Below are positions 2,859-62,334 of a DNA stretch of 64,000 nucleotides, piece by piece. The DNA is from an uncultured Mycoplasma sp. Its GTDB lineage: Bacteria > Bacillota_I > Bacilli_A > Mycoplasmatales > Mycoplasmoidaceae. Location: positions 62,001 through 126,000 of the forward strand of contig CANSNC010000001.1 of assembly GCA_947648205.1 (NCBI GenBank). The letters are read 5' to 3'. Below the pieces are notes generated by a model that was not told the DNA's origin, searched no databases, and saw only the letters and a program-made list of their open reading frames with translations. The position numbers and the translations under genes were made by a program. The first letter of the stretch is position 1. The number at the start of each line of letters is the position of its first letter.

Positions 2859-3617
2859 TTATTTTAAATATTGGAAACCGCTTGGTCCTTTAGTCATATT
2901 AAATTGTTCAAGTTTTTTTGGTTTACTATATCTAAATGATTCTTTAGAAATAAGAGCATGAGCTTCTTTTTTTCCTTCATAGTAAGAATCAAATTCTTTT
3001 TTTTCCATAGCAGATTGTGATCTATATTTATTTCATGCTGTACTTAATGCACATATATCAATTTTTTCTAAATCAAACTCCCCAACAACTGCTTTTACAG
3101 GAGCAGTTGCATAAATTAATACTCTTTTCACTTTGTTAACTGGTGTTACTTTATAAAAGAATACATTTTTTGATTCATCATCTAAAATTAAATTAGCATA
3201 TTTTGGAGTTGTAGAAATCATAATAATAGATGTTTGTTCAACAACTTCAACTTTTTCTTTTCATTCTTTTTTAGAAACAGTTTGAACTACTTTTAATTGT
3301 TCATTTTCTCTTTTTAAAGATTCTTCTTTTATTTTTACTTGTTTCACTGGTTTTTTAGGCTCTTGTTTTACAACTTGAGTTTTACCATTTACTATTGCAG
3401 TTAATCTTGAAGCTAACCTACTTGCCTTGTTTTTTGTTATTATACCTTTTGATAAACTTGAATCAATTAATGAATAAGCTTTAGCCAAATCTTCTTTTGA
3501 TTTAGATTTTTGAGCTTTTTTAATTTGAGTTTTTAGTTTAGACATTTGAATGTGATTTAATAAATGTCTTTTTTCATCTTGCAAATGTCTTTTATCATTA
3601 CTTTTAATATTTGCCAT
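2859..3617 (-). CDS. rpsT: Ribosomal protein S20 fused to a C-terminal ASCH (PUA-like) domain
   Basis: This single 252-aa reading frame on the minus strand runs from ATG 3617 to TAA 2859-2861. Residues 1-87 are a normal S20: [10 protein letters not shown] start, Lys-rich helices, and a Ser-x-x-x-Lys-Gly-Ile-Ile-x-x-Asn-Lys-Ala-x-Arg stretch. S20 binds 16S rRNA in the 30S body. Residues about 88-130 are a charged linker. After a UGA-Trp, residues about 133-252 match the ASCH fold: Pro-x-Tyr-Ala-x-x-Ile-Leu near the start, [15 protein letters not shown] in the middle, Phe-x-x-Tyr-Tyr-x-Gly, and a closing Pro-Ser-Gly-Phe-x-Tyr-Leu. ASCH domains are thought to bind RNA. S20 alone is usually about 85-90 aa. 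If UGA were stop the protein would be 118 aa, but the downstream codons remain conserved-looking. The SD site GGAGA precedes the start. Confidence 0.88.
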
Positions 3618-7280: not shown

Positions 7281-8630
7281 ATGGAATCATGAAAAATAAG
7301 TTTGATAATTAATACATCAATTTTTCTTATTTTCTTTTTGATATCAATAATTGTAATTTATAGATTAAAAATAAAGCAAAAGGGTTACAAATTATTATTT
7401 ATAACTTATCTTTGTTTTTGGATTCCATTAATGATGACACGTGAATATAGTAGCAAAATAACCTATGGTGTAAATGTAGACTTAATGTGGTTAGTGTTAT
7501 CTTCTTATGGATTTATTGGGATCTTTTTTCGACCGATTGTTGATTATTTAGCATTAAGATTAAAAAATAGGAAAATTATTTTATATTCTGCAATAGTAAT
7601 TGTCTTTATTTCATTTATTCCTTTTATAATTGTGCAAAATACAACAACATCTGTTATTCAATCAATTGGAATCGGTGTTGGTGCATCAATGATAGGAATG
7701 TATGAGTTAATGTTTAAAGAACAATACACTGTTAATAAAGCATTTTTAACAGTATCAATATTAGCCTTGCCCCCATTATTAGCAGATTTTTTGTCATCAT
7801 CAATTCAATCAATAGTGACTACAATTCCAAAAAGTGAATACAATACTAATTATCCATATATGTATATTTGAATAATTTCATTATTTTTTTTAGTATTGAC
7901 GTTAATTCTTTTATTCTTTGTTAAAGAAAATAGAGGCTTAATTGGACTAAAAAATTCTAAAAACATAATAATACAAAATAATTGAATAGCATATATTTGA
8001 TATTCATTAATATGTGTCATGGGTTTTTTAGTTGCTTTTATAAAATTTTCAAATAGTGGTAGTGTTGGTGTATTGACAATAACTCAAATTAATGAGTATT
8101 ATAAAACATATAGTAGTGAAGTGCTTGAAGGAATAACAGCTTATATGTCACTTCTTTTTAGTCTTTTTCAACTCTCTAGTTCATTATTTATATATTTATT
8201 TGTAATAAAAAAGGATAGAAAAGATATTTTATTTTCTATTGGTATAATAGTTTGAATTTTATATCATTTATTAATAATGTTTGTAAATGATAGTATTGCA
8301 TATTTTGCTTTATCTGCTTTAAATGGATTGTCTTATGGAATTCTTTATAATTTGGTATTAGGTTTGGTTTTAACACTTTCATTTAATATGAATAAAATTA
8401 CACCAATGGGAATATATCAAGGGATTTTGTCAATTGGAACAACAATATCAACTTTTTTAGTTCCTTTTATAAAAACAAATTTAACTAGTAAGAATCAAGA
8501 AGCATTTACTAAGAATAACTATATTACAAATGGAATATTATTGAGTTTAATTGTTATGTTTGGTTTGATATATCTTTTAGTTAGATTTATTCAACATAAA
8601 AATAAAGAAAAAATAATTTTAAACATTTAG
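7281..8630 (+). CDS. MFS-type permease (449 aa), substrate unknown
   Basis: About twelve hydrophobic segments cover the protein. A Phe-Arg-Pro-x-x-Asp-x-x-Ala...Arg-Lys motif between helices 2 and 3 resembles the MFS motif A (GIFFRPIVDYLALRLKNRK). ATG 7281 is chosen because AAAGG at 7269-7273 lies 7 nt upstream; a downstream TTG at 7302 would cut the first helix. Four or more UGA-Trp codons are read through. A perfect terminator overlaps its stop codon. Substrate cannot be inferred. Confidence 0.82.
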
Positions 8631-8652
8631 ATAAAACTAAATGTTTTTTGTT
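8621..8652 (+). terminator. Intrinsic terminator after the MFS gene
   Basis: AAACATTTAG (8621-8630) and CTAAATGTTT (8637-8646) pair perfectly over 10 bp and are followed by a T-run. This separates the housekeeping block from the coiled-coil cluster. Confidence 0.9.
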
Positions 8653-8743
8653 GTTTTTAGGAAAAAATGATATTGTTGCACTGCTATAAAATATATGATA
8701 AAATGGGTAATTTTTAGGTTATTATATAAGATAGGTATTTTTA

Positions 8744-8795: not shown

Positions 8796-11699
8796 ATGAG
8801 TAATAAATTTAATTTTATTGATGCAGTTTCGATTAAATATGCCAATAATGTTATTTCTAGAATCCAAAATTATGATGTAATTGATGAAATTGTATATGAA
8901 CAACCACAAAAGGAAGAGAGTATTAAATCTGAACAAGTTAAGAGTGTGCCTTCTCAGAAAATTGAAGAAAACTTATATAATGAGAATTTAAATGATTTAT
9001 ATGAAAAGAAAACCACTATAGAAAATGTTGCAAAAGATAAAGAAAGTGTTATCCATCCATATGTAGATTCACAAAGTGTTAATGTTCCAACATCAGACTA
9101 TAGCAAATTGAGTTCAAATTTTAATGCAAAATTTAATTTCAAAAAGGAACAATCAACAATACCAGTATCAAAAAATGAAAAAACAAATGAACAAGAAGTG
9201 ATATCAGTGCCAATTGTTCCACCTAAACCACAAATTATAGAAAGTAAAAAAAATGTATTAGAGGAAAAACAAGATATTGTTTATGTTAGTCCTAGTACAA
9301 AAAAAGAAGTTCATAAAAATATTGAGGAAAAGCCAATGAAAAATTTTAATGCTAATAATATTAGTCAAGTTACAACTAAAAATAATGCCAGCTCTAATTT
9401 AGACAATAATCAGCAAAAAAGTACATCTCAGAATTACAATTTAGAAAATGAAATTAATACTTTTAATTATGACTATGATATTAATTCCATAAATGAGTTA
9501 GACAATATTATTAATATTAATGATGTATATGATGATTTAGGCAAAACATTCCAAGATGATTTATTTAACCAATATGATAAATTGGATAAATATGTTAACT
9601 ATGATGATATGCCTAAATATTCTTATTTACCAAAGAAAAGAATAAGAGATTTATTATTAACTAAATATAATATTACAAATGAAGAATGTGTTAATGATTT
9701 ATATTCAATGGCTTTCAATAATAAATGAAAAGAGATTGATGTTGAACATTGATTATTGAATCCTGCAAACATATCCACACTTCAAGCAAAATATGGGAAC
9801 ATTGGGTTAGTGTCACAAAAGGAATTGGACAATAAAGAAGACGTTGCTGAATCTATTGATTTACCAAATAATAAAAATGATTCTAGTAGTGTAACAACAA
9901 CTAAAATTACAGATTCTAAAAATAAAAGTGATAATAATATTCAAAGAGTTGAAATTGCTATTGTGAGAGAGGATCAAAAACAAGAAAATGTTGATGTTAA
10001 ATCTAATAAAGAATTTGATCATCATTTAGATTATCATCATAATCATTGTCTTAAAAAAGAGAATATGAAACATAAACATCATAGACATACACATGAAAAT
10101 AACTATTACAATTATGACAATCGTTTTTTTATAAAAGATGAAATGAGATCAGTTTTAATTGAAGAAAATTATAGAAAAATGCAATTTGATTTTCAAACTG
10201 AGGTTTTAAAAAATCATATTGATTCTAAATTTAATAGTTTATTGAATATTGGCAATTCAAATTTTCCTTCTCAAAGATATGCAGGTTTCTCATATAATTC
10301 AAATAATTTACAAGAACAACAACATTCTTTGCAAAATGAATCATTAAATTTAAATAATCAAGATCAAAAAAATAATAAAGATTATTTATTAGTTAAGGAT
10401 TTTGATAATAAAATTACAGAAATGTTTAATGAAGAAAGGGCAAAAATAAAGGATGAGATTTCAGTTGAAATTAATGAATTAAAAGAAAAATTCAATGAAA
10501 ATGAAAAAAATATTTATGAATCTTTAGATTTTATTAGAAAAGAAATTAAGGAAAATGAAAACAATTTAAAAATTAATTTTAATGATTCATTAAATGAACT
10601 TAGAAATGAAATTTCAAATAATCTTACTCAATATATACAAGAAATTGATAAGAAACAAGATGTATTAGCTGAAGTTTTCCACAATAAGCAAAATGAATTA
10701 TTAGATAAAATTGTAGATATAAATAAAGAAAATAGTGTAAATGTAAATAATTCTTTAGTAGAACAATTAAAACTTAATTTTGATAGTATCTCTGAAGAAA
10801 TGTCATTATTAAAAAATAAAATTAATAACCAGAGTGTTGAAAATAGCAATGAAATTAAAGATTTAAGAAATGATATAACAAATCAATTAAGTGTAGTTTC
10901 AGAAGAGATGAAAAACTCTGTGCTTAATATTTATAATGAAATAGATACATTAAGTGAATATGTGTACAATAAAGAACATTATTTATATGACAACAAAGAA
11001 GATAATAATCAAGATCAATTAGTTAATGAAGAAAATTTACATAATGATGAATCTAATTATTCAAATGTAAATAGAGTAGAAACTTTTGATAATGATTTTG
11101 GAGTTATTCAAACAATTAGAACAAATGATAATAGTTTTCAGATACCAAATTATGATGACTATAAAGTAAATTATTATTCTAATAATTCAACTAAAGATGT
11201 AGTACAAGAAGAAAACAAAGTATCGAATGACTCATTGATTGAGGAAGTAAAAACTGAAAAAGCAAAAACAGTTGATTATGAATCATTTGCAAATAATGAA
11301 TTAGAAAATGCAAATTTTAATTTCTTAAATAATTCAAGTAACTTTGAACCTCAAAATGAATTAAATGAATATGAATCAAATTATGATGATGCAACATTAA
11401 CAAATGAAGATAAGGATTTTTATAATCGTTTCTTGAATGATGAAAAAACAGAAAATAAAAGTTCAATAATTTCAAATTTTGATTCTAATACAAAAGTGAA
11501 CATTTTGGACATAGAAAATACTGTAAATATTTCTAATGAAAATGAAACTAGTAAAGAAGATGATATTAAAGCTAAATTATCTAGGATAGATGAAATTATA
11601 AAAAATAGCATAGATGAATTAAGTGATATCAAAGACTATGTAAAAGAAGATGATGCAAAAATTGATGAATCAATAAAACTATTTGAACAAGTTAAATAG
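8796..11699 (+). CDS. Coiled-coil cluster protein 1 (967 aa), with His-rich patch
   Basis: ATG 8796 is preferred over ATG 8784 because the GGAG at 8786-8789 is then correctly spaced. Residues 1-230 are low-complexity and Pro/Ser/Asn-rich. Residues about 265-345 look globular: aromatic, with a PKKRIRDLLLTKY element and two UGA-Trp codons (SMAFNNKW, VEHW). A His-rich patch (10 His and 1 Cys in about 27 residues) lies near 408-435. Residues about 520-720 form a long Glu/Asn/Lys heptad-like coiled coil, followed by an acidic Asn/Asp-rich stretch to about 910 and a short final helix. No signal peptide or membrane segment is seen. It is the first of six co-directional, closely spaced genes. No recognised family; a structural role is inferred. 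Confidence 0.85.
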
Positions 11700-11733
11700 T
11701 CAAATATAAAAGTAATAACATTGGGAGAAACAT

Positions 11734-14700
11734 ATGAGTAGTTCATCTAGTAAAAAAGAAATACTACAATTAATTATTAGAAAAAAAGTTGTAATAGAAA
11801 ATAATTATTTTACAATTTCTTCTATAATTGATGACATAATCAAAACTACTAAAGATGATAATATTATTAGTTTAGCTAAAGCCAAACAATCTGCTTTAGA
11901 TAATGCTATAAATTTTGCTGTCTCTCAATTAGAAATACTTATTCAAAATTTTATTAATTCATTGCAATCTTTTGATGCTGAAAAACATAAAGAAATTGAA
12001 AAACAATTACAAAAAACAATTGATCAATTAAATTTAAAAACAAAAGTTTTAACAGAAGATTTATCAAAAGCACAAAATATTAAAAATTATTCAAATGTAC
12101 CAAGTGATAATGCTATTTATGGAACATTAGATAATGTTCCTGAAAAAGATGTGAACAAAGAATTTGGAAAAAAATCTAGAAATGAAATTAAAGATTTAAG
12201 ACAAGGTGTTTTAATTGAAAGTTTAAATGATCCATCTCCTAGAGAATTATCAATTTTTGATGACATGTATTTTGATGAAGTTCAAGAATTTAATGAATAC
12301 AAAAAAAATAAGAATGAACTTGAAACTAAAATGTCTATTAAAGATGAGTTTGAAAAAATGGAAGGTCATTCAATTAGTGATCAATTGTTAGAAATTGAAA
12401 ACAAATTAATGAATGAAATTAACAAATTAAAAGTGTCAAATCAATTAGTAAGTGATACTAATGATACATTATTGTCAAAAATTAAAAATGAACATCCTGA
12501 AGTAATGGATTCAGATTTGGTTAATAAGCATTCATTTGACATGTTAGATGTTGCTATTAATGATATGATTTCAAAAATTGAATTAACAAAAATTCCAGAT
12601 TATAAAAATCATGACATTAAAAATCTTGAAGATATAAGTCAAACATTAGTAAAAAGTCTTGAAGCAAATATTGAAAACCTTTCAAAAGATATTAAAAACT
12701 TAAAAGAAGAAAATAAGACTTATAGAGATAAGATGGATGAATATATTTCAACTATTAGTGATTTAAAAAATGATAGACTTGAAAGAGAAAAGGAATTAAA
12801 TGAATCATATATAGCATGAGTTTCAAGTAATAAAAAATTACAAGATCTTGAAATTTTATTAGGTCAACAATCAATTGACATTAGTGACCTAGATGGGCAA
12901 AAAAATATAATTATTGATACTCTTGAAAAAAAATTAAAAGATACAATATCTAATTTAAATATAATTTTATCTCAAAATGAAGAGTTAATTAATAGACAAG
13001 AAGAATTAGAAGAATTTATTAGACTTAATGAAATTAAAAGTGAGTATACTGTAAGTGCTTTTGAAAAGGACATTGAAGCAAAATCACTTCAAGATTTGGT
13101 TGAAAAAGAAACAAATAAAATTGTTGAAATTAAGTTATCTGCAATGATAAGTAGATATAAAGAAGAACTTGATTTATTAGAGAATAAAGTTAAAGAAAAT
13201 ATTGAAGGTATTAATACAAATAAGGATATTTTATCATATGAATTTGATAAACAAGCAAATCATACAAATGAAATAAAAGATTTCCAAGATAAAATAGATA
13301 GATTTGAAAATAAAGTTAAGCTATTAGAAGAAAAACTAATTCAAATTCAAACTCTAGATAGAAATAGCAAAGAAACTATAGAAAGTATTAATGATTCTTT
13401 AGGGTATGAATATGTAAAAAATGAAATAATGGATAATGAAGTTTCTCAGAAATTAAAATCATTAGAACAAATGTTAAATGATACAATGGATAGACTTAGT
13501 GCATTTGAAAATAAAGATGCAGCAAATTATTATTCAGATGATTATAATGTTGGAGAAATGAGTCAAGAAGAGTTGGATTATATTATCAAAAATTCTGATA
13601 TATATAATGATATAAGGTCAGAAATTGTTAGATTAGAAAATCAAGTTAATGTGTTGAAAAGTGAAAACATTAAGATTAAAAGAGAAAACTATGAAATGAC
13701 AACTGAGCTTGATGATTCTTTCCAAAAATTTGCATATAACACAAATAAGATGAAGCAAGTTGAAGAATTATTAAATAGTCAGGTTGAAGAATTTGAAAAA
13801 CTTAATGTTGAAAAAGATGAATTGATTGCAGCTCTTGAAAACAAAGTTCAAGAAACAATAGATACAAACAACCAGTATTATCAAGAAGAATATTATCCAG
13901 AAAACCAACAGTATCAAGAATACAATGAATATAATGAATCTTTAGCAAGGGAAAATATTGAATTATTAATTGATAAACGTGTTAATGAATTATTGGCAAA
14001 TAAAGCTTTAGATGTTCTGGCAAATAATAATAATTCATTATCATTAAATAATTTGAATTCTCAAGTAAGTGAAAATCATGTTTTTTCATCACCTGATGAC
14101 TACCCAACAGACTTTATTTCAAATGAAGATAATAAAGAGCAAATTGATATAAAGAATTTTGATCCATTTATGAAAGATGAAATTGATGATAAAAAAGATG
14201 TTATTCAATATAATAGTGGAATTAATGAAACAGAATCAGAAGAATTTGATTTTATTCCTGTTGAACAATCTTTTGAGTCAAATGGTTATACAAATGAATT
14301 TGAATCTAGTATTAAAAATAAAGATTATTTAGATGTTAACTATTATGATAGAGTTAAGTCTGATCAGGAAAATAAAGAAAAAATTATTCAAGAATTGAAC
14401 CAAGAAAAAACAGATCAAATTTTACCTGATGAAGCTGCTAATGATAGAAATGAATTAACTATTGAGAAAGATTTTAATATTGATGAATCTTTAGAAAATG
14501 CAGAATTAAAAACAAAATTAATTAATTTACAAGAACAATACAATCTTTTATTAAAGGAATTAGAAAATAAAGAACCAATCATAAAAGAGAAAATTATTGT
14601 TAAGGAAATTAAAGATAAACAATACAATGTTCCAAAAGAACTTCTAGAAAATACAGAGCGTTTGAAAAATTTTGAAAGATTATTAATACAAATAGATAAT

Positions 14701-14763
14701 GAAATATCTAATTTAGAAAATGATTCATTAAATAAATTTTTAAATGCAGGAGATAGAATATAA
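11734..14763 (+). CDS. Coiled-coil cluster protein 2 (1009 aa)
   Basis: It starts at ATG 11734 behind GGGAG. Almost the whole protein is predicted helix: coiled coil at about residues 60-115, 190-260, 300-360, 375-510, 630-710 and 905-1000. A less regular acidic Asn/Asp/Glu stretch lies between about 780 and 905. Two copies of the cluster motif (Lys-Leu-x-x-Leu-Glu-x-Leu-Leu-x-x-Gln) occur, one directly after a UGA-Trp at 12817 and one near 13735. A Tyr/Gln-rich segment (YYQEEYYPENQQYQEY) sits near residue 715. No signal peptide or membrane helix. The gap to the next gene is 28 bp with a GGAG site. Function unknown. Confidence 0.86.
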
Positions 14764-14791
14764 AAATAAATTTTAACTATATGGAGTCACT

Positions 14792-16585
14792 ATGAAAGAG
14801 GAAAAAATAATAGATCAATCTTTAGATGTTTCTTATAATAAAAAAAGAATTTCTAACAGATTAGTTGAATTAAAAAGTAAGTATCAAAATTTATTAGTAG
14901 AGTTAAATGAAACATCTATTGATAATATTGATAGAGTTTTTGGTTACAGTCATAGTGATTTAAGTGATATAGAATCAGATTTATTTCTAAATAAAATAAA
15001 TGAAAACTTGGAAGTTCAAGATAAGATTAGAATTTTAAAAAATAATATTGCTACAAAAATAAAAAATATTGAAAAAATTAATTCTTTAAATATTAATAAT
15101 CAATCTTTTGATGAAATTAAAAATCAAATTAGTGCATCACTTGATTTGATAAATAATATGGAACAAAATTATGATCAAAAATCAAATGATTTTAATGATT
15201 CAACAAATTTGATAATAGATAAAATTAATTCATTAGAGAATCAGATAAAAAATATAAGTGTATCAAAAAATATTGATATAAAAGACGAAGCTATTTATAA
15301 AGATGAAATTGCATTTTTGAAACACCAAATAGATCAATTATTATTAGAAAACAAAGAATGTAAATCTAAATTAAATGAATTAATTTATATAAATAATGAA
15401 AAGGAAGAGGAAATTAGTAAATCATATGATGCTTGACTAAAAAATTCTTCTAAACTTAATGAACTTGAAAATCTTTTATTAAAAGAGCAAGAGGAATACA
15501 CAAGTTTAGAAAATGAAAAGGATGAAGCTATTGATTCACTTGCTAATAAAATAAATAATATTAGAAATGAAAATAGTATTTATGATCAATTTTCTCAAGA
15601 TATATATAATGATTCTAATATTACAAATAATTCTTTATTAGAGGCAATTGATCAAAAATTTAATGATTTAAAAATAGAATTAATTAATAATAAATTTACA
15701 ACAGATAGTTTAGATAAAGTTAATAATGAAATAAATAATTATGATAAATTAAAAATAAAAGCTAAAGAAATTTATAATAAAACAATTATTGACTTATTAA
15801 AAAATTTGAAAGATAGATATACACAAATTATTAATAAATTAGATCAAATAGAACCATTATTTTCTTCAGAAGTTAGTGCATTAATATCTCCTAGTACAAG
15901 TGATTTTATTAATCCATCTTCTAATATTGAGGAATTAAAAAATGATTTAATTAATGTGGATGAATATGTAAATTTAACTTTTGGAAGCGAAGTTAATGAT
16001 GACCATGATTTGTTTAGTAGATTAAGCAAACTAAATACACTAAATGATTTTCAACAATTCATTACTTATTCAATAGATAAATTTGATGAGTTTGTAAATG
16101 AAATTATTTCTGAAAGAAATATTTTAAATAATAAAGTTATTGCTATTAATGACAAATCATTTAATGTAAATAGTTTCTTTAATATAATTAATGATTTAAT
16201 AAATAGAATTAATAATTTCATAGCACTATTAAATAGTGAAATCTCATCAATTAATGTTTCTAATATTTTATATGAATTAGAGGATGATCTTTCACAATCA
16301 CAGTACTGATTTGATTTTGTTGATTTATTGAATTCAATAAAATTATTAATAAATTATCAAAAAGTTGTTTTTGATAATTTAGAGACTGAAGTTGACATTT
16401 ATAATAAATTAAAGGAAAGTGGTTCTTCATTAAATGAATTTAATCATCAAGATTTATATGATTCAAATGAGTTAATTAATAAGAACAATAAATTAAAAAA
16501 TATTTTTCAAAAGTTAAGTAATTTAGAGAAATTAGTTGATTTATATGAAATGGATCAATTTGAAACATTTGTTGAGAAGATATAG
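14792..16585 (+). CDS. Coiled-coil cluster protein 3 (597 aa)
   Basis: Intact reading frame from ATG 14792 (ATGGAGTC upstream) to TAG 16585. It is helical throughout and Asn/Ile/Leu/Asp-rich, with heptad-like stretches at about residues 20-100, 130-310 and 390-590. One copy of the cluster motif follows a UGA-Trp at 15434-15436 (SYDAW, then Lys-Leu-x-Glu-Leu-Glu-x-Leu-Leu). It ends only 9 nt before the next gene, which supports one transcription unit. No membrane segment and no known domain. It is the smallest of the six and lacks the Pro-rich regions seen in the first and last members. Confidence 0.85.
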
Positions 16586-16594
16586 GAGAAAATT

Positions 16595-19500
16595 ATGAAA
16601 AATAAATTTAATAATAAACTAAATATTGAAGAATTAAAGCAAGAATTACAAAATATCGTTTCAGATTATAATGATATTGATAATTCTAACAATTTTCATT
16701 CTCAACAAAAAAATAATTCTCCAGCTAGCTTAGAAGAAGAAAATAGACAGTTGTCTATTAAAATAAACAACACAAAAGAAAGAATATATGAAAAATTGTC
16801 ATCTCTTTCTGGGAAAAATAAATTTCAACATTTATTGAATAAATTTGTAGAATTTTATGATGAAAAGGACTTAAATAAATTAAAAGTTGCTTCTAAGTTT
16901 GAAAATTATGTAAATGATGAATTTTCTTCTTCAAGTAATCTTGAAACTTCAACATTAAATTCTAGCCCTTCTTCTCTAGATAAAAGTTATACACAAGATA
17001 TTGAAAACCTTTTTGAAGAACAAATTAAAGAAATTAGAGATATTCAAAAAAACAAAGCAAGATTTATTGATGAAATCATTTATGATTTGAATCCAAATGA
17101 TGTTACTCATGAAGTTGTCACAACTTCTGTAATTAATAAACTTGATTACATTAATAAAGATTTTAAATTGGATTTGAATTATTATTCTTCAAAATACTCT
17201 AGTTTAAATAATAAAAATTCTAGTGATTTAATTAAATTTAAAGAAAATATTTTGAATTTAATTGATGATAGTATTGAAGAATTAAAAGAAGAATTTAAAA
17301 ACTACATTATGTTTAATAAATTTTTGCATGAAAAAATTTCATCTATTAATGGAGAAAATCAAAAAATTAATTTTGATGATTCATCAACTTCAAAACAATC
17401 TTTTGCAGTAAATGATGATAAATATTCTTCATTAGAAGATAAAATTTTAAAGTTAATTGATTCAGTTGATAATTTAGCAACTAAGAATAATAATTTTGAA
17501 AATAAAACTACAGAAATAATTGACAAAAAAATTAATGATCTTGAAGAAAAATTTAATAAAATGATAAATTCTCTTGTAGAACAAAATGAAAATAAACTTT
17601 ATTTAGAACAAGAAAACTCAAATAAGATTTTTGAAAAATTATCTAATTTTGTTGATTCAATAAAATCAGAAAAAAATGATTTTATAATGCAAGCTCAAAA
17701 ACAAATTGTTGATATTGTAAAAAATAATGAAAATGAAAAGAAAACAATTATTGAATTATTGCAAAAAATACAATCTGAAACAATTTCAGCAAGTGATGCT
17801 GAAGCATATAATAGAAGTTTAGTAAATAGCAATAAATTAGTTCAACTTGAATCATTAATAATGAGACAAAATGATGAAATTGAAGAATTATTAAAAGAAA
17901 AAAATGATGCATTTGATGTTCTTGAAGATATTTTAAATAACCCTCAAGGAAAAAATAATCCAGAAGAATTGTTGTCACATATTGAATCTAATATAGAACG
18001 TATAATTTATAATTTTGATGAAAAAATTAGCAATCTTGAACAATCATTTGTTGATAAATTAGAGTCTATGAATTCGCGTGAAAATTCTGACAGAAATGAT
18101 TTAATTGATAATATTAGTGATGTAGAAAATAGATTATTGCAAAATTATGAAACAATTAAAATGAATTTTTCAGATAGTTTCAATGAAATTATTAATTGAT
18201 TGAACTCTAATAGAGATACTGGAACTAAATTGGATGAATTATTAAATAATGTAAGAGATATTAAACATGGTAGTCATCAATTTGGATTAGGTAATGACAT
18301 TAAAAATGAATTATCTAATTTATTAGAAAGTAACAAATCATCTTTGATTCAACAGTATGGTCCTCTTGAAGATAAAATTGAGTCTTTAACTTCTGCTTTT
18401 AAAGAGAACAAGAATGATATACAAAATAAAACTAGTGAAATTATTAATTCAAGAATTTCAGAGCTTGAAAATAAATTTACTTCTTTAGTTGATGTTATTA
18501 ATGAGAGTAATGCTAATAAATTAAACATTGAACAAGAAAATTCTGATAGATTGTATGATAAATTAGCACAACTTGTAAATTCTATAAATTATGAAAAAAA
18601 TGAATTTTTCTTAGAAACAAAACAACAGATTACAAGCATCATTAAGAGCAATGAAAATGAAAAGAAATATATTATTAGTTTATTAAATAAAATTCAAGAT
18701 GACAATAAAAGCACAAATGATGAAGTTGCTTTAAATAGATCTTTAATTAATAGTGAAAAATTATTACAACTTGAACACTTGATTATGAGACAAAATCAAG
18801 AATTAGAAGAGTTACTAAATGATAAAAATGAAGCATTTGATACAATTCATGAAATGTTGTCAAAAACTACAAAAAATGATGATGTAACACAATCATCATT
18901 TATGGAAATAGAAGATAATGTAACTTCAATTGTAAAGAGTCTTGAAGATAAAATTAATGGTCTTGAACAAACATTTGTTTCTCAATTAGATGCAATTAAT
19001 AGCAATATGGCTGCATCATTGATGAATAATGCATCTAACTATAATGACAATAAATCATTAAATGAAATGATGAATAATATAAATTCAGTTGAACAAAAGT
19101 TGATTCAAAATTATGATTATATTAAGCAAAACTTTAATGAAAGTTTTAATGAAATAATTAATAGATTAAATTCAACAAAAGATTCAATTTTTAATGATAG
19201 TGAAATTAATTCAAAATTAGATTCAATTATTAGTGATATTGATTCAATTAAATATTCTAGTAAGTATGGTCTAGGTGATAATTTAAAATCTGAATTAAGA
19301 GATATATTTAGTGTTGAGTTAAATAATAAGATTTCAGAACTAATAAATAATGGAATTAATGCTGAAGAATTAAATAATAAAATTGGTCATATTGAAAGAA
19401 AATTAAATGATTTAACTGAAGAAATTATTGATAGAAACAAACATGAATTTATTGAATTATCTAACAAAATTGATAGTGTTGATTACATTACTAAATTAAT

Positions 19501-21457
19501 ATCTGAAAAAGTTTTAAGTTTAGATGATGAATATGAAAATGTGGAAGCAAAATTATTTGATAATTTTAAAAAATATGAAGAAGTTTTAACAAACACTTTG
19601 TTGAAAGATAAAGAAAATTATAATGAGTTAAAACAAATGATTGAAGAAAATTATGTTAAAAGAGAAAATGAACTTTCTGAGAGTGAGTTTTCAAAATTGC
19701 AATCATTAAATTTAAAGTTAGAAAAGCTTGCATCTTTGATAGATATGCAAGAAAGAGAAATTGAGACTTTAATTCAAGAAAAAAATGAAGTTATGTCATG
19801 AGTTGGTAATGCTAGTCCAAATGATTTAAAATTCAATTCTAATGAGATTGATCAATTGTCACAGGTAGTTGCATTAAAAGTTCAAGAATGTTTAAAAAGA
19901 AATCTTTCTACTCCAGACAATATAACAAGTATTTATAAAAGTGATGATTATAATGAACTTGTTCAAATGAATGAGAAGATAGATGAATTATCAAATTATC
20001 TTCATAATAATATGGGTTTTTTCCAAGATAAAAATAGCATTTCAGAATTATTTTCTGTTGATGTTTTCCAAAACTTTTCTAATATTGATTTTTTAATTAA
20101 GAAAGTTGAATTTATTACTTCTGAAATTAATAATATTCATTTTGAATTATCAACTTCTGAATCTCAAAAATTAGGAGAAATTCAAGATAAATTAGATTCA
20201 TTAAAATTTAACTTATTTAGTATTGAATGAGATTTATCTTTATTAAAACACAAATTAGATGCTTCGTTACAAATACAAGATATGAATGCTGAGAATAGAC
20301 ATAAAGATTTAATTTTGGCAAATAAGAAAAAATTAGAAATTATTTCAGATTTAATTGATAAAAACAAAAAAGCATTGAGTAATTTATTTAATGATAAGGA
20401 AAATTTAATTAAGAAATATAAATTAAATAATAATTTAAGTCCTAGTAGTGATCATGATTCAGATATTTTAGTAGACATTAAATCTAATGCTATTTTTGAT
20501 AAACTTGTGAATAAATTAAAAACTACATTTAATAATGAGATTGATTTATTAAATTCTAAGTTTATTAATTTACAAGCTAAAATATTAGATTCTTATTCAA
20601 ATAAAAATCATGATGATCAAAATTTAGTTGATGATTTTAATGAAGAAGATATTAAAACTATAAATGAGATTATTTCAAAAATTTCAATCTTAGAAGAAAA
20701 TCTTGAAAGAGCATTTGATGCATTAGAAAACAAGAATAAAGAGTTATTAAATGGAATTACATCATTAGTTTCTGAAAATTATGTTTATAAACAAATAGTT
20801 GATAAATTTGATAAGCAAAAGGGATTAATCCAAGAAGAATATGATAAACAAAAAGAAAATTTTAAAGATTATATTCTTAATTTAAAAAATACAGAAGTTC
20901 AAGGATATAAAGATAAATTAAATAAACTTGAAAAAGAAGTAAATAAACTAAGAGAATTAAATGAAAAAGAAATTTTTGATCAATTGGATTCATTAGACAA
21001 TTATATAGAAATGTTAATGTTACAGTTAAATTCATTCCAAGAAGAAAAACATAGTTTATATAATGAAATGATTGATAAATTAAATTATGTTGATAAACTT
21101 GGCAATCCAACTTCTAGTGATGAATTTATAAGTCTTGAAACTGATAATATGTATTCAGGAAAATTCAAGGATATAGTTGGTAAAGATACAATAAGAGTTA
21201 TTGAAGAAAAATTTGATACTCTTAAAGAAAACTTGATAGTTGATTTAAACAAAATTATTACTGAAATAAATGAATTAAAAGAAAAATGATTATCTGATGA
21301 TTCTAAATTACAAAAAATGAATAAAAACAGTGATTCTCCATTAAAATTAATAAATGATAATGTTTTATTTTTCATAGATGAACTTGAAAGAAGAAAATCT
21401 GAAATAAGTCTTTTCTATAAAAAAATTAATAATTTAAAAGAAATAGTGGAAAGATAG
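16595..21457 (+). CDS. Coiled-coil cluster protein 4 (1620 aa) with a ~310-residue tandem duplication
   Basis: The largest protein in the window. It starts at ATG 16595 behind TAGGAGAAAATT (its ribosome site overlaps the end of the preceding gene). UGA-Trp codons at 18197, 19799, 20228 and 21287 are read through. A unit at residues about 296-604 is repeated at about 605-915 with many identical positions, each containing LEQEN/IEQEN, Ser/Lys-x-Asn-Glu-Asn-Glu-Lys-Lys, Ala-x-x-x-Asn-Arg-Ser-Leu, and Leu-Ile-Met-Arg-Gln. A third, partial copy of the internal motif lies near residue 1040. The rest is long heptad-like coiled coil. No signal peptide, no membrane helix. The size and all-helical make-up suggest a filament or scaffold protein, by analogy to large mycoplasma cytoskeletal proteins such as HMW2; homology is not established. 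Confidence 0.87.
17480..19330 (+). repeat. Diverged tandem duplication inside cluster protein 4
   Basis: Unit 1 is 17480-18406 and unit 2 runs from 18407 to about 19330. The repeat is clear at protein level: the starting segments (Glu/Asn-Asn-Lys-Thr-Thr/Ser-Glu-Ile-Ile), the Glu-Gln-Glu-Asn-Ser segment, the Arg-Ser-Leu-x-Asn-Ser segment, Leu-Ile-Met-Arg-Gln, and the closing Gly-Leu-Gly-x-x-x-Lys all recur in the same order. Unit 2 carries about 19 extra codons near 19000-19080. Nucleotide identity is low, so the duplication is old. Confidence 0.85.
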
Positions 21458-21498
21458 TGAAAATTGAAAAATAAAAAATGATAATGAAGGGGTTTATT

Positions 21499-24111
21499 AT
21501 GTCAATTAAGCATAAAAAAAATAGCTATATTGATGATATAATTTTTGATTCTAATCTTGATTTTGAAAATAGAGCAGAAACAGATTTATTGATTCGTGAA
21601 GAAGCTAAACACTTAGCACAGAAATATTTAGCACAAGATAAATTGGAGTTGGCAAGTAATGCCAATAATCCTTTTGCTTCTACTTTGGAAAAATTAGAAG
21701 AAGGAACTCTTAAAAATGTAGAAGAAATTAAAAGAAGCAATGATACTTGAGAAGAAAGTAAAAACATCTTGTCTAGAATAGAATCAAAATTAATTGACTT
21801 TGATAATGAACTAAAACAATTGAAATATGGTCATAATGACAATAACTCTTTTGATACCCCTTTAAATGAAAACAATAATGATGTAATTTCTAGTATTAAA
21901 AAAACATTGGTGGAAAACAATGATAGTTTAAAAGATGCTTTTGGTGCAATGATTAACCAATTGTCTGAAGTAATAAATGGTACTAAAATATCAAAAACAG
22001 ATAATGTTCAATTAAAAGAAATTGATAAAAATGATGAAGAAATTATTATTGAGCCAATTCAATTTGATGATAATGATGTTTTGAATGAAGTTAAAGTTGA
22101 TAATGTAATATCTTTAGAAGACTTTGAAATTGATGATTCAGATTTAGATAAAAAATCTAATCCAACTATGAATGTTAATTCTGAAGAATTAGATCAATTG
22201 AAAAACAAACAAAATGAATTAGTTAATGTTCAAGAAAAATTAAATAAAGAAATAGAAATCATTAAAAAAAGTATTAATGATTATATTTTGGCAAGTGAAT
22301 ATTCAAATAAAACTATTTTGGAACAAACTATTGATAATGCACATAGATTATCACTTGATGTTAATGTTGTCAAAGAACAATATTCTAATTTGGAAAATGA
22401 AATAAATAAAATATATTCAACATGATTGGATAACAATCAATTGTTGACTAATCTTGAAAACTTGTTAATAGATTTAAGTCATAAAAATGAAAATTTAGTT
22501 GATGAAAAATATTTATATAATGAAGAAATTGCACGTAAAACAACTGATAATGAAAAATATATTAATGAAATTTCAATTGAATCAAATAATTTAAAAAATT
22601 CTATTGAAAAAATCAATGAAAGACTTTCTTTGGTAGAAGATTTATCAAATTCTTTTAATCCTAATGATTATGTAAAAAATAATTTAACTGAAACAATGAT
22701 TGATGAGGTTAAAACTATTTCAAAGAATATTGTTGAAGAAGCTTTAGTTGAAAGAAATTTATTTGATCCAAAACAAATAATAACAAGAGAAAGAGTTATT
22801 GATGAAGTTATGGATAGTGATATATTCAATTACTCATTAGAAAAGAAAATCCAACAAACTATTATTGATGAAAAATTGGATAGAAAATTAGATGAATCAG
22901 ATAAGTTAGAAATGCTAACATACACAATTAATTCTGATAAATTTAAAAATATTATTTCTTCAGAAGTTAACTATGTTTCTAATGATATTAAATTAGAATT
23001 AAATGATAGATTTACAAAATTAAGAGATGATTTCCATAACACTAACTGTTATAACTCAAATAAATTTATAGAACTTGAAACAAAATTAGATTCTAAAGAA
23101 GATTTTTTACAAAAAAGCGAAATTATTGAAATGGTTTTTGCTTCTAAGGAATTGGAAGATATCATTAATGATAAATTAATTTATGTTGTTAATGAACAAT
23201 TAGATGATTTAAAAGAATCAATGAGTGTCATAGAAAATAAAATTTTAAATAGTGTAAAAAGATATTTAGATGAAGATATTCAAGATAATTTAAAAAAGGA
23301 AATCATTGATTCAAAAGATATTAGACAGAAAATTAAAAATGAATCATTAAATGCAATTTATCATGAATTAAATGAACGTGATAAACAATATGAAGATCAA
23401 AAGAAAGAAATTCTTCAAAATTATGAAGCTTTATTTGAAAATAATAGAATTTTAGAAAATCTTGAAAAATTAATTTTAAAACAAGTAGAAGAAATTGAAG
23501 GTTTCAAAAAAGATAAAGAAAACTCATTTGAAATAGCAATTGATAAGATTAATGCTCAAAAGGCAGAAATTGATTACTTAAAGGAAAAAGTTTTTGAAAT
23601 TTATGGTAAAGATCTTGTGATAAATAGTTCTCCTGAACAAGTATATGAAAATGAAGTTTATGAAAAAGTAAAACAAATAACTGCAAGTTTAGTAAGAGAG
23701 GAAATTAAGAAATTAAATTTAATTTCCACAGCAAATAGTACTAATAATAGTCCAGTTATTACTACCCCAATTTTTATTGATGATAATAAAGAAGAAGTGA
23801 GTGATTTTTTCAAAAATAGAATAAAAGATATTCTAACTAAGCTTGAAGAAAATTATGAATCTGTCAAATTAGATGAAAAAATACCTCTAGCAGATGAATT
23901 TAAATTTAATTTAAATGATTTAAAAATTGATTTAGATGATTTAAAAGAGTCAAATCTAAATAATGCAGTTGAAACTGAAGATGATTTTGGTTGATTTTAT
24001 GAGCAAGAATTTAAAGCTCACAAAGAAGAAAAGGAACAGTTAGGTAAAAAAAATAGTAATTTATCAGATGATCAATTACTTAATTACAGTATTCTAGATG
24101 ATAAAAAATAG
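21499..24111 (+). CDS. Coiled-coil cluster protein 5 (870 aa)
   Basis: ATG 21499 is chosen over ATG 21478 because AAGGGG at 21487-21492 lies 6 nt before it. The N-terminus (residues 1-80) is Ala/Glu-rich with a Leu-Ile-Arg-Glu-Glu-Ala-Lys-His-Leu-Ala stretch. Three cluster-motif copies occur: after a UGA-Trp at 21748 (WEESKN), after a UGA-Trp at 22423 (WLDNN), and near 23440. Between them are repeated short helices of the form Val-x-x-Ile/Val-x-x-x-Glu-x-Leu (about residues 400-620) and long coiled coils. An acidic C-terminus with one UGA-Trp (23992) ends at TAG 24111. No membrane segment. Function unknown; co-transcription with its neighbours is likely. Confidence 0.86.
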
Positions 24112-24135
24112 GCAATAAATATAAAGAGGTATTTT

Positions 24136-26466
24136 ATGAAAAATAATGATATTTTTAAATTTGATATAAGTGAAAAATGTGAAAGAATTATTGAACTAGA
24201 AAATAATCCTGAATTTAAAAAATTGCCATATCATCAACAAGTAATTTTATTAACTGGTGAAAAACTTCTTCAAATTGACCAAAAACTTAGAATGCAAACA
24301 AATTATTTAAATGATTTTATATTGCAGTATGGTAATGCTATTTCTGATATTGCAACTAATCAAAAAAATATTCAATCTTTTATTAAAAATTTAATCAAAC
24401 AAGAAACTTTAAATTTAACACGTGATTTGAAAGAAAATGGTGCAATACCTTCAGTTGATGAACAAAAAATAGTTGATTTAATTGAGGAAAAATATAGTGA
24501 AGAAATTTCTAACATGGAAACACGTTTAGAATATGCAACTAAACAAACAATTAAAAATTTTGATGAAACAATTTATGATACATTAGAAAAAATTGATAAT
24601 TTAACTCAATTTGAAATAAAGGCAAAAGAAGAATTGCAAAAAAATCAAGACAGAATTTATTTAATTGAAGAAGAAATTGCAAGACAAAAAGAAATTAATG
24701 AAACATTAGAAGAGTCTTTTAATAAACGTATATCAGAATTATCAAAATTAGATGGGCATTTTGATACAAATTCTTCAATATTTAACTATAAATATTATGA
24801 TTCAAGATTTGATACTATTGAAGAACTTGAATCTTTCATAAAAGATGAGTCTAAAAAAATAGCTAAAGAAGAAGTAGAAAAATACATACATGACTATAAT
24901 TTATTTTCTGAAGATAGAAATGATGAATTGATTGAAAAGCTATTTGAAGAAGGTCAATTAAAAGAATCAGAAGTTTCAAAAGTTTATAAACTTCAACTTG
25001 AAAATAATAATAAAATGAATGATCTTGAATATTTATTAGATGAACAAAATAGACAAATTAAATTACTATCTGAAGATAGACAAAATTTAGTACAAACTTT
25101 ATCTGAAGTTTTAAAAAATAAAGATGTAGATATTTCAAAAATTTTAGAAACAATGCCTTTCAAAAATTTTAATGATGAATTTATTTATAAGGAAAGATCT
25201 GATAGCAAGAATGCATATGATATAAATCCATCAAATATTTTGAATAGCAATGAAATGGAAATATTAGTTAAGAAACAAGCAATAGAATTAGTTAAAGAGA
25301 AAATTGCTTTATTAAATAAGAAAAAAATTGAAAATACAAATTTAAAAGAAGTTCATGATGCTAATTTTGAAGACAAAGAATTACAGAAATACTTTGATCA
25401 AGCAAACAAAAAAATTGCAGCATTAGAATCACAACTTAAAGAACAAATCAAAGAAAATGATAATTTAAAAAATGATTTATTTGATGAAATATCTAAAAAT
25501 AATTTAGATGCACAAAATAATGAATTTATATTAAAAAATAATGATAACATTATTAATGATATAGATAGTATAGATTGAGAAAATTTAACTGATGAGGAAC
25601 TTATGAAACATAATTATTACAATGGAACAACACCAATTCCAGGTACAAAAATTACTAGAATTAATAATTATAAAATAAACAATGATTTTAATTCTTCAAA
25701 TTTTAGTAGTGATGCACAACATTTAATTAAACAAGATGCTGAAAAGATTGCTAATGAAAAAGAAAGTAATAATTTTGGTTCTGCTTGACAAGAAAGTAAT
25801 CAAAAACTTCTTGATTTAGAAAATTTAATTTCAAGACAAGAAGAAGAAATTAAAAGATTAAAAACTAAGGATACAGTTGCTACAAGTGGTGATAAAAATA
25901 CTTTAAGTAACATTGATGAATCAATAAAAGAAGCATTAATGAGATTGCAAGATTTATCTTCAGCTCAAGAAAAAACTAAAAAAGAAATTGAAGAAACTAA
26001 TAGAAAGATTCATGATTTGGAATCTCAATTAAGAAAGTCTAAATCTAGTGATATTGAAGAAGAACTTGCAAGAAAAGAACTTGATAAATTAATGGAAGAA
26101 AAATATAGTAGTAAACCTAATTATCAAGATATTAATTATTCAGATGAAATAAAGAAAATTGAAGCTGAACGTAGAAAAATAGAAGAAACTTTAGAATTAG
26201 AAAGAATCAGATTGTTATCTGAGATTGAAGCTAATAGAAAAAAATTAGAAGAGGCTCCTGTAGTAACTGAAGTTCCAGTTCAACAAGCACCTATTGCTAC
26301 ACAATTAGTTGAAGAAAAACCTAAAAAAATTGAAACTACTCCTCAACCAAAAGAAGAAGTTAAATTTGTTTTAGAAGCTCCTAAAAAGAAAAGAAAACAA
26401 CAATTGTTTTTTGAAATTAAAACTCATTCTACTCCAAAACTTACAAGAGCTGACTTAGAAAAATAA
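24136..26466 (+). CDS. Coiled-coil cluster protein 6 (776 aa), with Pro-rich basic C-terminal tail
   Basis: It starts at ATG 24136 behind AAGAGG and ends at TAA 26466 before a terminator. Coiled coil covers about residues 80-235, 285-345, 410-465 and 550-700. Cluster-motif copies lie near 24990 and directly after a UGA-Trp at 25786 (SAWQESNQKLLDLENL). Residues about 480-550 are less regular (YYNGTTPIPGTK). The tail from about 705 is Pro/Val/Glu-rich (VVTEVPVQQAP) and ends with a basic patch (KKKRKQQ) and a short Phe-Phe-Glu-Ile-Lys segment. Such a tail differs from the acidic helices elsewhere and could be a docking site. No signal peptide or membrane segment. Last gene of the cluster. Confidence 0.86.
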
Positions 26467-26473
26467 TATATAT

Positions 26474-26513
26474 AAATACAATTATTTGTTTTAAATGATT
26501 GTATTTTTTTATT
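26474..26513 (+). terminator. Intrinsic terminator closing the coiled-coil cluster
   Basis: AAATACAATTATTT (26474-26487) pairs with AAATGATTGTATTT (26493-26506), one G-U pair, followed by a T-run. This is the first good terminator after 8652, so the six genes could form one 17.7-kb transcript. Confidence 0.8.
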
Positions 26514-26617
26514 TTTCATTGTAAAAAAGAGTAATAATATATATATTTTATAGTTTTGTTGTTGATAAATTAGTTTAAAATTTATAAAATTTATGTATTA
26601 GTGTTTTTGAGGTATAT

Positions 26618-59094: not shown

Positions 59095-59169
59095 AGGGGT
59101 ATAGTTCAATGGTAGAACGGCGGACTTCAAATCCGCGTGTTGTGGGTTCGAGTCCTGCTACCCCTGCCA
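59095..59169 (+). tRNA. trnW: tRNA-Trp (anticodon UCA, reads UGA)
   Basis: 75-nt cloverleaf with acceptor AGGGGTA/TACCCCT and encoded CCA. The anticodon is TCA (59127-59129) in GCGGA-CT-TCA-AA-TCCGC. It reads UGA and, by wobble, UGG. This directly supports the UGA-Trp code. The size is far shorter than a selenocysteine tRNA. Confidence 0.96.
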
Positions 59170-61974: not shown

Positions 61975-62334
61975 ATGAAAGTAACAAAAAAAGAAAAAAA
62001 ACAAAGTGATCTTATATCATCTCATAGTAATAGAGGTGAATCTCTACAAAAAGAAATGAAATTACAAGATTCTTCATCTCAATGAGATGAAATTAAAAAA
62101 ATACATGAAAATGAAGTGAGTAGTGTAATTTTAGAGCAAGAAATTTTAAAACGTGAAAAAGAAGCTGAAATAGAAAAAAAGAAAATATTTATAGAGATGC
62201 AAGAGCAAAAAATGACTCGTGAAGAAGATGAATTTAATAGAATTATAGATATTGAAAATAAAATTAAAAATAAGAAAAAAAGAGAAATGAAAAGAAGAGA
62301 TATAGCTTTTAGAAATAAAAGCATTCTTGGATAA
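61975..62334 (+). CDS. Small charged coiled-coil-like protein (119 aa)
   Basis: The frame needs one UGA-Trp (SSSQW). AAGG precedes ATG 61975, and TATAAT lies at 61942-61947. It is almost all Lys, Glu, Arg and Ile, forming one long charged helix (residues about 38-110). No known domain. Found between ktrB and the tRNA cluster. Confidence 0.78.

Follow-up and report, generated by a model that had tools for sequence, protein, structure and literature searches.

A conserved six-gene operon encoding a candidate coiled-coil scaffold of the Malacoplasma attachment organelle

Six consecutive genes, P1 to P6, in a 64,000-nucleotide stretch of the genome of an uncultured Mycoplasma sp. (contig CANSNC010000001.1, positions 62,001 to 126,000; this whole stretch is called the window below) very probably build one internal scaffold. 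To judge from their sequences, the products would form a cytoplasmic coiled-coil scaffold specific to the genus Malacoplasma and its sister genus, and we hold, with somewhat better than even confidence, that it is the internal cytoskeleton (core) of the attachment and gliding organelle. The initial annotation of the window had already proposed one structural system, a proposal now well supported by six-gene synteny, by a motif that is confined to the operon and occurs in five of the six proteins, and by the near-exclusively helical, rod-like nature of the products.

The genome of the window (G000) comprises 1.0 Mb in 28 contigs, has a GC content of 24.5%, and reads TGA as Trp (genetic code 4); calling of open reading frames (ORFs) with table 11 broke all six genes, so that code 4 was needed. 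The comparison sets were 10 genomes of Malacoplasma, which NCBI places in the Mycoplasmoidaceae, three genomes of its sister genus (g3; G011, G020, and G029), 11 genomes of g7, 95 genomes of the family, and 298 genomes of the order. G001 is M. penetrans, which we take to be strain HF-2, and the nearest relatives of G000 are G008 and G006. Catalase is encoded in G000, G006, and G008 and is missing from the other members of the genus; since possession of a catalase gene is a known trait of M. iowae (PMC4367981), that species is the probable identity of G008.

The P1 to P6 operon and its conservation

Under code 4, the six co-directional ORFs are open exactly as the initial annotation had listed them, with the following coordinates and lengths.

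8796..11699, + strand: P1, 967 aa; long low-complexity or disordered parts and a conserved segment of ~50 aa, without the shared motif; first gene of the conserved operon
11734..14763, + strand: P2, 1009-aa coiled-coil protein, with 304 aa between its two motif copies
14792..16585, + strand: P3, 597-aa coiled-coil protein; one motif copy
16595..21457, + strand: P4, 1620 aa; tandem coiled-coil units of ~300 aa
21499..24111, + strand: P5, 870-aa coiled-coil protein, with 336 aa between its two motif copies
24136..26466, + strand: P6, 776 aa; most conserved member of the operon
8621..8662, + strand: terminator-like hairpin upstream of the operon (folding versus shuffles)
26474..26515, + strand: terminator-like hairpin at the operon end (folding versus shuffles)

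The gaps from P1 to P6 are 34, 28, 9, 41 (or 20), and 24 nt, and a Shine-Dalgarno (SD)-like sequence precedes every start, in agreement with the 9 to 41 nt and the SD-like sites noted before. The smaller value for the fourth gap refers to an alternative upstream ATG of P5 at 21478, which would give 877 aa; the start at 21499, chosen in the initial annotation, is better supported by its SD-like site. The terminators placed at ~8621 and ~26474 are indeed hairpins followed by T-runs and are more stable than dinucleotide shuffles (z of -2.2 and -2.65, respectively); a consensus terminator scan detected neither because it requires G-C pairs.

The gene order in G008 and G006 is fmt-lepA-P1-P2-P3-P4-P5-P6-efp-(gap)-nusB-rsmE-transmembrane (TM) protein-mtaB, with P1 directly after lepA and no intervening transporter-like gene. 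M. penetrans, G009, and G005 likewise have a run of six large ORFs, the last of which is P6 (at about 201,148-203,550 of the M. penetrans chromosome); P1 of G005 runs off the contig end. The co-occurrence of all six genes, which had been suggested as something to look for, was thus found in these five genomes, and M. penetrans and M. iowae were the right places to search, as the whole operon is present in M. penetrans HF-2 and in G008, the probable M. iowae. In the fragmented Malacoplasma genomes, the 3' part of the operon is visible, and the order was checked as far as the contigs reach. Orthologues of P6 occur in all 10 Malacoplasma genomes and all three sister-genus genomes, and in Malacoplasma the operon mostly sits just upstream of efp. 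Two local differences were observed: in G009 (L025), minus-strand genes including one for a DnaJ-like protein lie downstream of P6 in place of efp, and in the window a gene with multiple membrane helices, MFS-like by eye (7281-8630), sits between lepA and P1.

LepA of G000 and G008 is 83% identical and EF-P 73%, whereas P6 reaches 51% and P2 to P5 reach 33 to 35% (local). The operon is thus fast-evolving yet has stayed intact. The persistence of open frames and gene order in other Malacoplasma at 33 to 51% identity argues that the ORFs are not due to chance.

A motif shared by P2 to P6 and its periodicity

The six proteins are acidic (pI 4.5 to 5.0), with 0.5 to 2.1% Pro, 9 to 16% Asn, and 19 to 26% Lys plus Glu, and P1 to P6 contain no TM helix (maximal 19-residue hydropathy of 1.04 or less), so that their earlier description as acidic, Asn/Lys/Glu-rich proteins without membrane helices stands. 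A motif scan of these proteins found neither a lipobox nor a Walker A motif. Hydrophobic power at the heptad period exceeds that of shuffled sequences for P2 to P6 (z of 3.5 to 17) and barely does so for P1 (z of 1.7); the claim that all six are helical coiled-coil proteins therefore holds for P2 to P6, while P1 is less coiled-coil than claimed. Searches of Pfam, NCBIfam, and PDB assigned the six proteins to no usable family and yielded no convincing relative; matches to SPAM and DUF7603 (in two of eight P6 orthologues) and to coiled-coil PDB entries were of the composition type and were rejected.

A motif of ~44 residues, W-x-x-N-N-x-K-L-x-x-L-E-x-L-I-x-x-Q-x-x-E-I-x-x-L, is common to P2 to P6 and missing from P1. 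It was first spotted by eye in P2 to P6 and then collected by an iterated profile. The genomes of the genus carry two copies in P2, one in P3, three to seven in P4, two in P5, and two to four in P6, and the motif is present in the sister genus as well. The motif-model search located these copies in the window.

12793..12924, + strand: P2, copy 1 (G000:C1:74793-74924)
13705..13836, + strand: P2, copy 2
15410..15541, + strand: P3
17801..17923, + strand: P4, unit 1
18728..18847, + strand: P4, unit 2
19670..19795, + strand: P4, unit 3 (weaker, 18 to 25 bits)
22399..22509, + strand: P5, copy 1
23407..23532, + strand: P5, copy 2
24970..25101, + strand: P6, copy 1
25780..25863, + strand: P6, copy 2

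Recognition across genes was tested with models trained on the copies of a single gene; a detection had to outscore all reversed sequences and the complete 20-fold block-shuffled, composition-preserving set. By this measure, P2, P3, P4, and P6 were recognized in most or all genomes and P5 more weakly. The P4-trained model detected P2 in 6/6, P3 in 3/6, P6 in 10/10, and P5 in 1/10 genomes, and the P6-trained model detected P5 in 7/10; P1 was never matched by any single-gene motif model. P5 is the weakest pairwise link, although the joint model gives most of its copies 25 to 46 bits. Profile comparison matched P2 to P3, P4, P5, and P6 at 84 to 97%. In the consensus of 64 copies kept at <70% identity, Leu and Ile occupy heptad-like core positions, and polar residues occupy others (Asn 5-6, 54 to 59%; Gln 19, 82%; Lys 30, 68%), with conserved flanking positions at K8 (76%), E13 (84%), and E22 (73%). 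By analogy with coiled coils in general, these polar core residues may set register or partner choice.

The motif is confined to the operon. All 10 matches in the G000 genome (E<=0.01) lie within C1:74793-87863, which is 12793-25863 of the window, and M. penetrans has 13, which likewise all fall inside its operon (at 183905-202851). Across the 95 family genomes, and likewise across the 298 of the order, multiple copies are limited to the 10 genomes of Malacoplasma and the three of its sister genus. Single matches in four genomes of other family genera (E of 0.0025 to 0.009) and, at E<=1e-4 across the 298 order genomes, one match each in two more (G141 and G185; E of ~1e-5) were treated as chance.

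P4 consists of units of ~300 residues repeated in tandem, each with one motif. Motif spacing is 285 to 319 aa in the main array of P4 and 295 to 311 aa in P2, and several P4 orthologues have shorter spacings (206 to 228 aa) towards the C terminus. When the motif was masked, the best ungapped self-matches of P4 still fell mostly at ~300, 600, 900, and 1200 residues, which indicates that the whole unit is repeated and not the motif alone. Ungapped diagonals were used for this purpose because shifted windows under free-end-gap alignment can slide back into register and are uninformative; self-BLAST of P4 gave nothing useful. Complete P4 proteins measure 1620 (G000), 1971, 2273, 2753, 3256, and 3317 aa. 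At 0.1485 nm per residue, a helical unit would span ~45 nm, and M. penetrans P4 would reach ~490 nm as an upper bound, if it were one continuous helix. Mean spacings agree between the two proteins within each group of genomes (P2, 308.7 aa, and P4, 307.1 aa, in G000, G008, and G006; P2, 295.3 aa, and P4, 295.0 aa, in G001, G009, and G005), and this clade-matched spacing fits pairing of P2 and P4 in register.

P6, the sister-genus form, and other features of the window

Three further conserved segments of P1 and P6 are as follows.

25606..25686, + strand: P6 segment KHNYYNGxxPIPGTKITRINNYxxNND, near-invariant in the genus and outside the confident helices of the structure model
26380..26463, + strand: P6 C-terminal tail KKKRKQQxFFEIKxHxTPKLTRADLEK (tail model)
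9624..9779, + strand: P1 conserved segment (YLPKKRIRDLLL...NNKWKEIDVEHWLLNPANI), from alignment with G008, G006, G001, and G009

The P6 tail model gives E <1e-16 in 13 genomes (Malacoplasma and the sister genus) and 0.002 or worse elsewhere. In the sister genus, the YYNG segment takes the form DEDMKxDxYNGxLPxTKIVKI, the counterpart having been read by eye (DEDMKYDYFNGELPKTKIVKI), and profile comparison of P6 with its sister-genus relative gives 99.5% probability (E of 1.7e-22, 278 columns). In G011, the two genes directly upstream of efp encode a rod of 3334 aa, in which the motif recurs, and a P6 relative of 404 aa that has the same tail, and the upstream neighbor of the pair is rpoA-like by eye; in G020 and G029, the same pair lies beside a different gene, and the giant gene is cut by the contig end. 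The simplest history is that a two-gene ancestor expanded in Malacoplasma, with loss of genes in the sister genus standing as the alternative.

Structure models were made with AlphaFold2 (AF2), after two misaligned rows had been removed from the alignment used for folding. The model of P6 (eight sequences) contains helices only, with a mean pLDDT of 56. Despite their near-invariance, its YYNG segment and C-terminal tail are of low confidence and mostly non-helical, which suggests that these peptides may take up their fold upon binding a partner. A two-unit P4 fragment (10 rows) is modeled as long helices (pLDDT of 68), in which the motif forms, in both units, a discrete helix of ~47 to 51 residues between short breaks.

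Other observations in the window include a His-rich stretch in P1 (8796-11699; DHHLDYHHNHCLKKENMKHKHHRHTHEN) with no similar aligned sequence in relatives. Ribosomal protein S20 (2859-3617, - strand) has 252 aa with a long C-terminal extension; in G008 and G006, ORFs of 134 and 116 aa, respectively, match the S20 part only. The ARAGORN call of tRNA-SeC(tca) at 59095-59169 is most likely a UGA-reading tRNA-Trp in a code 4 genome. A small ORF for a highly charged helical protein (119 aa; 61975-62334) lies just upstream of a cluster of six tRNA genes.

Relation to known systems and function of the scaffold

Among the closest known systems is the attachment-organelle core of M. pneumoniae and M. 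genitalium (HMW1, HMW2, HMW3, P65, P41/MG491, and MG200/TopJ), wall-less bacteria of the same family; its cytoplasmic proteins are likewise large and acidic and are coiled-coil or disordered in nature. HMW2 is one of the main constituents of that core, and P65 has both coiled coils and disorder (PMC11940719). P2 to P6 resemble a large cytoplasmic coiled-coil core protein such as HMW2 in character only, through their heptad signal (z of 3.5 to 17) and helical models. In both systems a short module recurs across components, the EAGR box in the M. pneumoniae type and the new motif in Malacoplasma, and the two differ in that module: in the same search, the EAGR box (PF16713) was found in 11/11 g7, 0/10 Malacoplasma, and 0/3 sister-genus genomes. 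The absence of an EAGR box, first noted for the surroundings of the operon, is thus confirmed for the whole genus, and these opposite distributions make the EAGR box and the new motif mutually exclusive within the family. P1 to P6 also differ in lacking the DPN(Q)AY-type acidic proline-rich (APR) repeats, as the DPN(Q)xY pattern has no match in them and their Pro content is low. The g7 genomes contain no match to the P6 profile and a single match to the motif model (G105, E of 0.009), a comparison made at the level of genomes and not of single HMW proteins. The best reading of these sequence comparisons is that the scaffold is probably unrelated by sequence to the EAGR/HMW system.

M. mobile is another mollicute that glides; it has Gli proteins and, inside the cell at one pole, a structure called the "jellyfish." It is set apart from the operon here by published description, not by comparison of Gli sequences: the gliding of M. 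mobile, M. penetrans, and M. pneumoniae involves no obvious molecular similarity (PMC9282661). The terminal protrusion of M. penetrans is at the front when the cell glides (PMC9282661), and an attachment organelle has been shown in M. iowae (PMC4367981). The operon therefore occurs in species with such an organelle, whole in M. penetrans HF-2 and in the probable M. iowae genome. As the genus has the organelle, has no EAGR proteins, and has a conserved, operon-confined, periodic set of coiled-coil proteins, we infer that the operon is the leading candidate for the organelle scaffold. Distelhorst et al. (2017; J Bacteriol 199:e00069-17) reportedly identified, by mass spectrometry, 12 candidate organelle proteins in the detergent-insoluble material of M. 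penetrans, a member of the same genus, and some operon products may already be among them. That study is not known to describe the shared motif, the repeat unit of ~300 aa, the conserved order of six genes, or the version with two genes.

How such a scaffold could be built is suggested by the motif, which may act as a coiled-coil segment that sets register and partner through its Leu/Ile heptad core, some positions of which are taken by conserved polar residues (Asn, Gln, and Lys), and which is predicted as a helix of ~48 residues bounded by helix breaks. P2 to P6 would pair side by side with crossing points every ~45 nm, P4 serving as the long backbone, P2, P3, and P5 as shorter rods in its register, and P6 as an adaptor whose two conserved peptides could dock onto further partners; the number of P4 units would set the length of the structure. 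In its full form, this raises the tentative possibility, for which we would claim less than even support, of a cytoskeleton of independent origin: coiled-coil proteins sharing a register-setting motif every ~300 residues would form a periodic (~45 nm) bundle of a length set by P4 unit number, which would have expanded from two ancestral genes, for a giant rod and the P6 adaptor, to six in Malacoplasma, and would replace the EAGR/HMW scaffold of relatives.

Several points weigh against assigning the scaffold to the organelle or against this architecture. The organelle phenotype is known for two species only, so that operon and organelle are not separable statistically, and the sister genus, with its two-gene version, leaves room for a more general ancestral role. 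P1 lacks the motif. The matching spacing of P2 and P4 amounts in effect to one phylogenetic contrast, from which G004 departs (~302 versus 293 to 316 aa, worked out by hand), and the AF2 models are monomeric and of low confidence (pLDDT of 56 and 68; pTM of 0.21 and 0.34) and are used here only in a supporting role.

A general cytoplasmic or membrane-associated cytoskeleton for the shape or division of wall-less cells, not dedicated to the organelle, is rather unlikely but deserves weight: the operon is present in every Malacoplasma genome examined and in two-gene form in the sister genus, contains no adhesin gene, and has housekeeping neighbors (lepA, efp, and nusB). However, the other genomes of the family, also of wall-less cells, do not have the system, and its mutual exclusion with the EAGR system is as expected of alternative tip scaffolds. 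Long rods with breaks, together with a basic KKKRKQQ tail of P6 that could bind nucleic acid, would suit chromosome-organizing or segregation proteins of the SMC/MukB type, a reading made very improbable by the lack of Walker A motifs in all six proteins and of any Pfam SMC match, by their acidic pI, and by the narrow taxonomic range. It is scarcely credible that the proteins are unrelated and look alike only because AT-rich DNA yields helices rich in Asn, Lys, Glu, and Ile. At 24.5% GC such composition does give many coiled-coil-like stretches, but the motif is recognized across genes above reversed and block-shuffled controls, its genome-wide matches all fall in the operon with none scattered, shuffled sequence gives no similar scores, synteny is conserved, and the P2 profile matches P3 to P6.

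An organelle scaffold thus remains the reading we prefer. M. penetrans, which is human-associated, and M. iowae, from poultry, build attachment organelles without the M. pneumoniae parts list, and the operon offers a concrete candidate parts list for them. The motif can serve as a diagnostic for finding further members, and the ~45-nm periodicity and the relation of P4 length to organelle length are testable numbers. If this reading is true, one and the same organelle would be built in related lineages with different short modules, each recurring across components.

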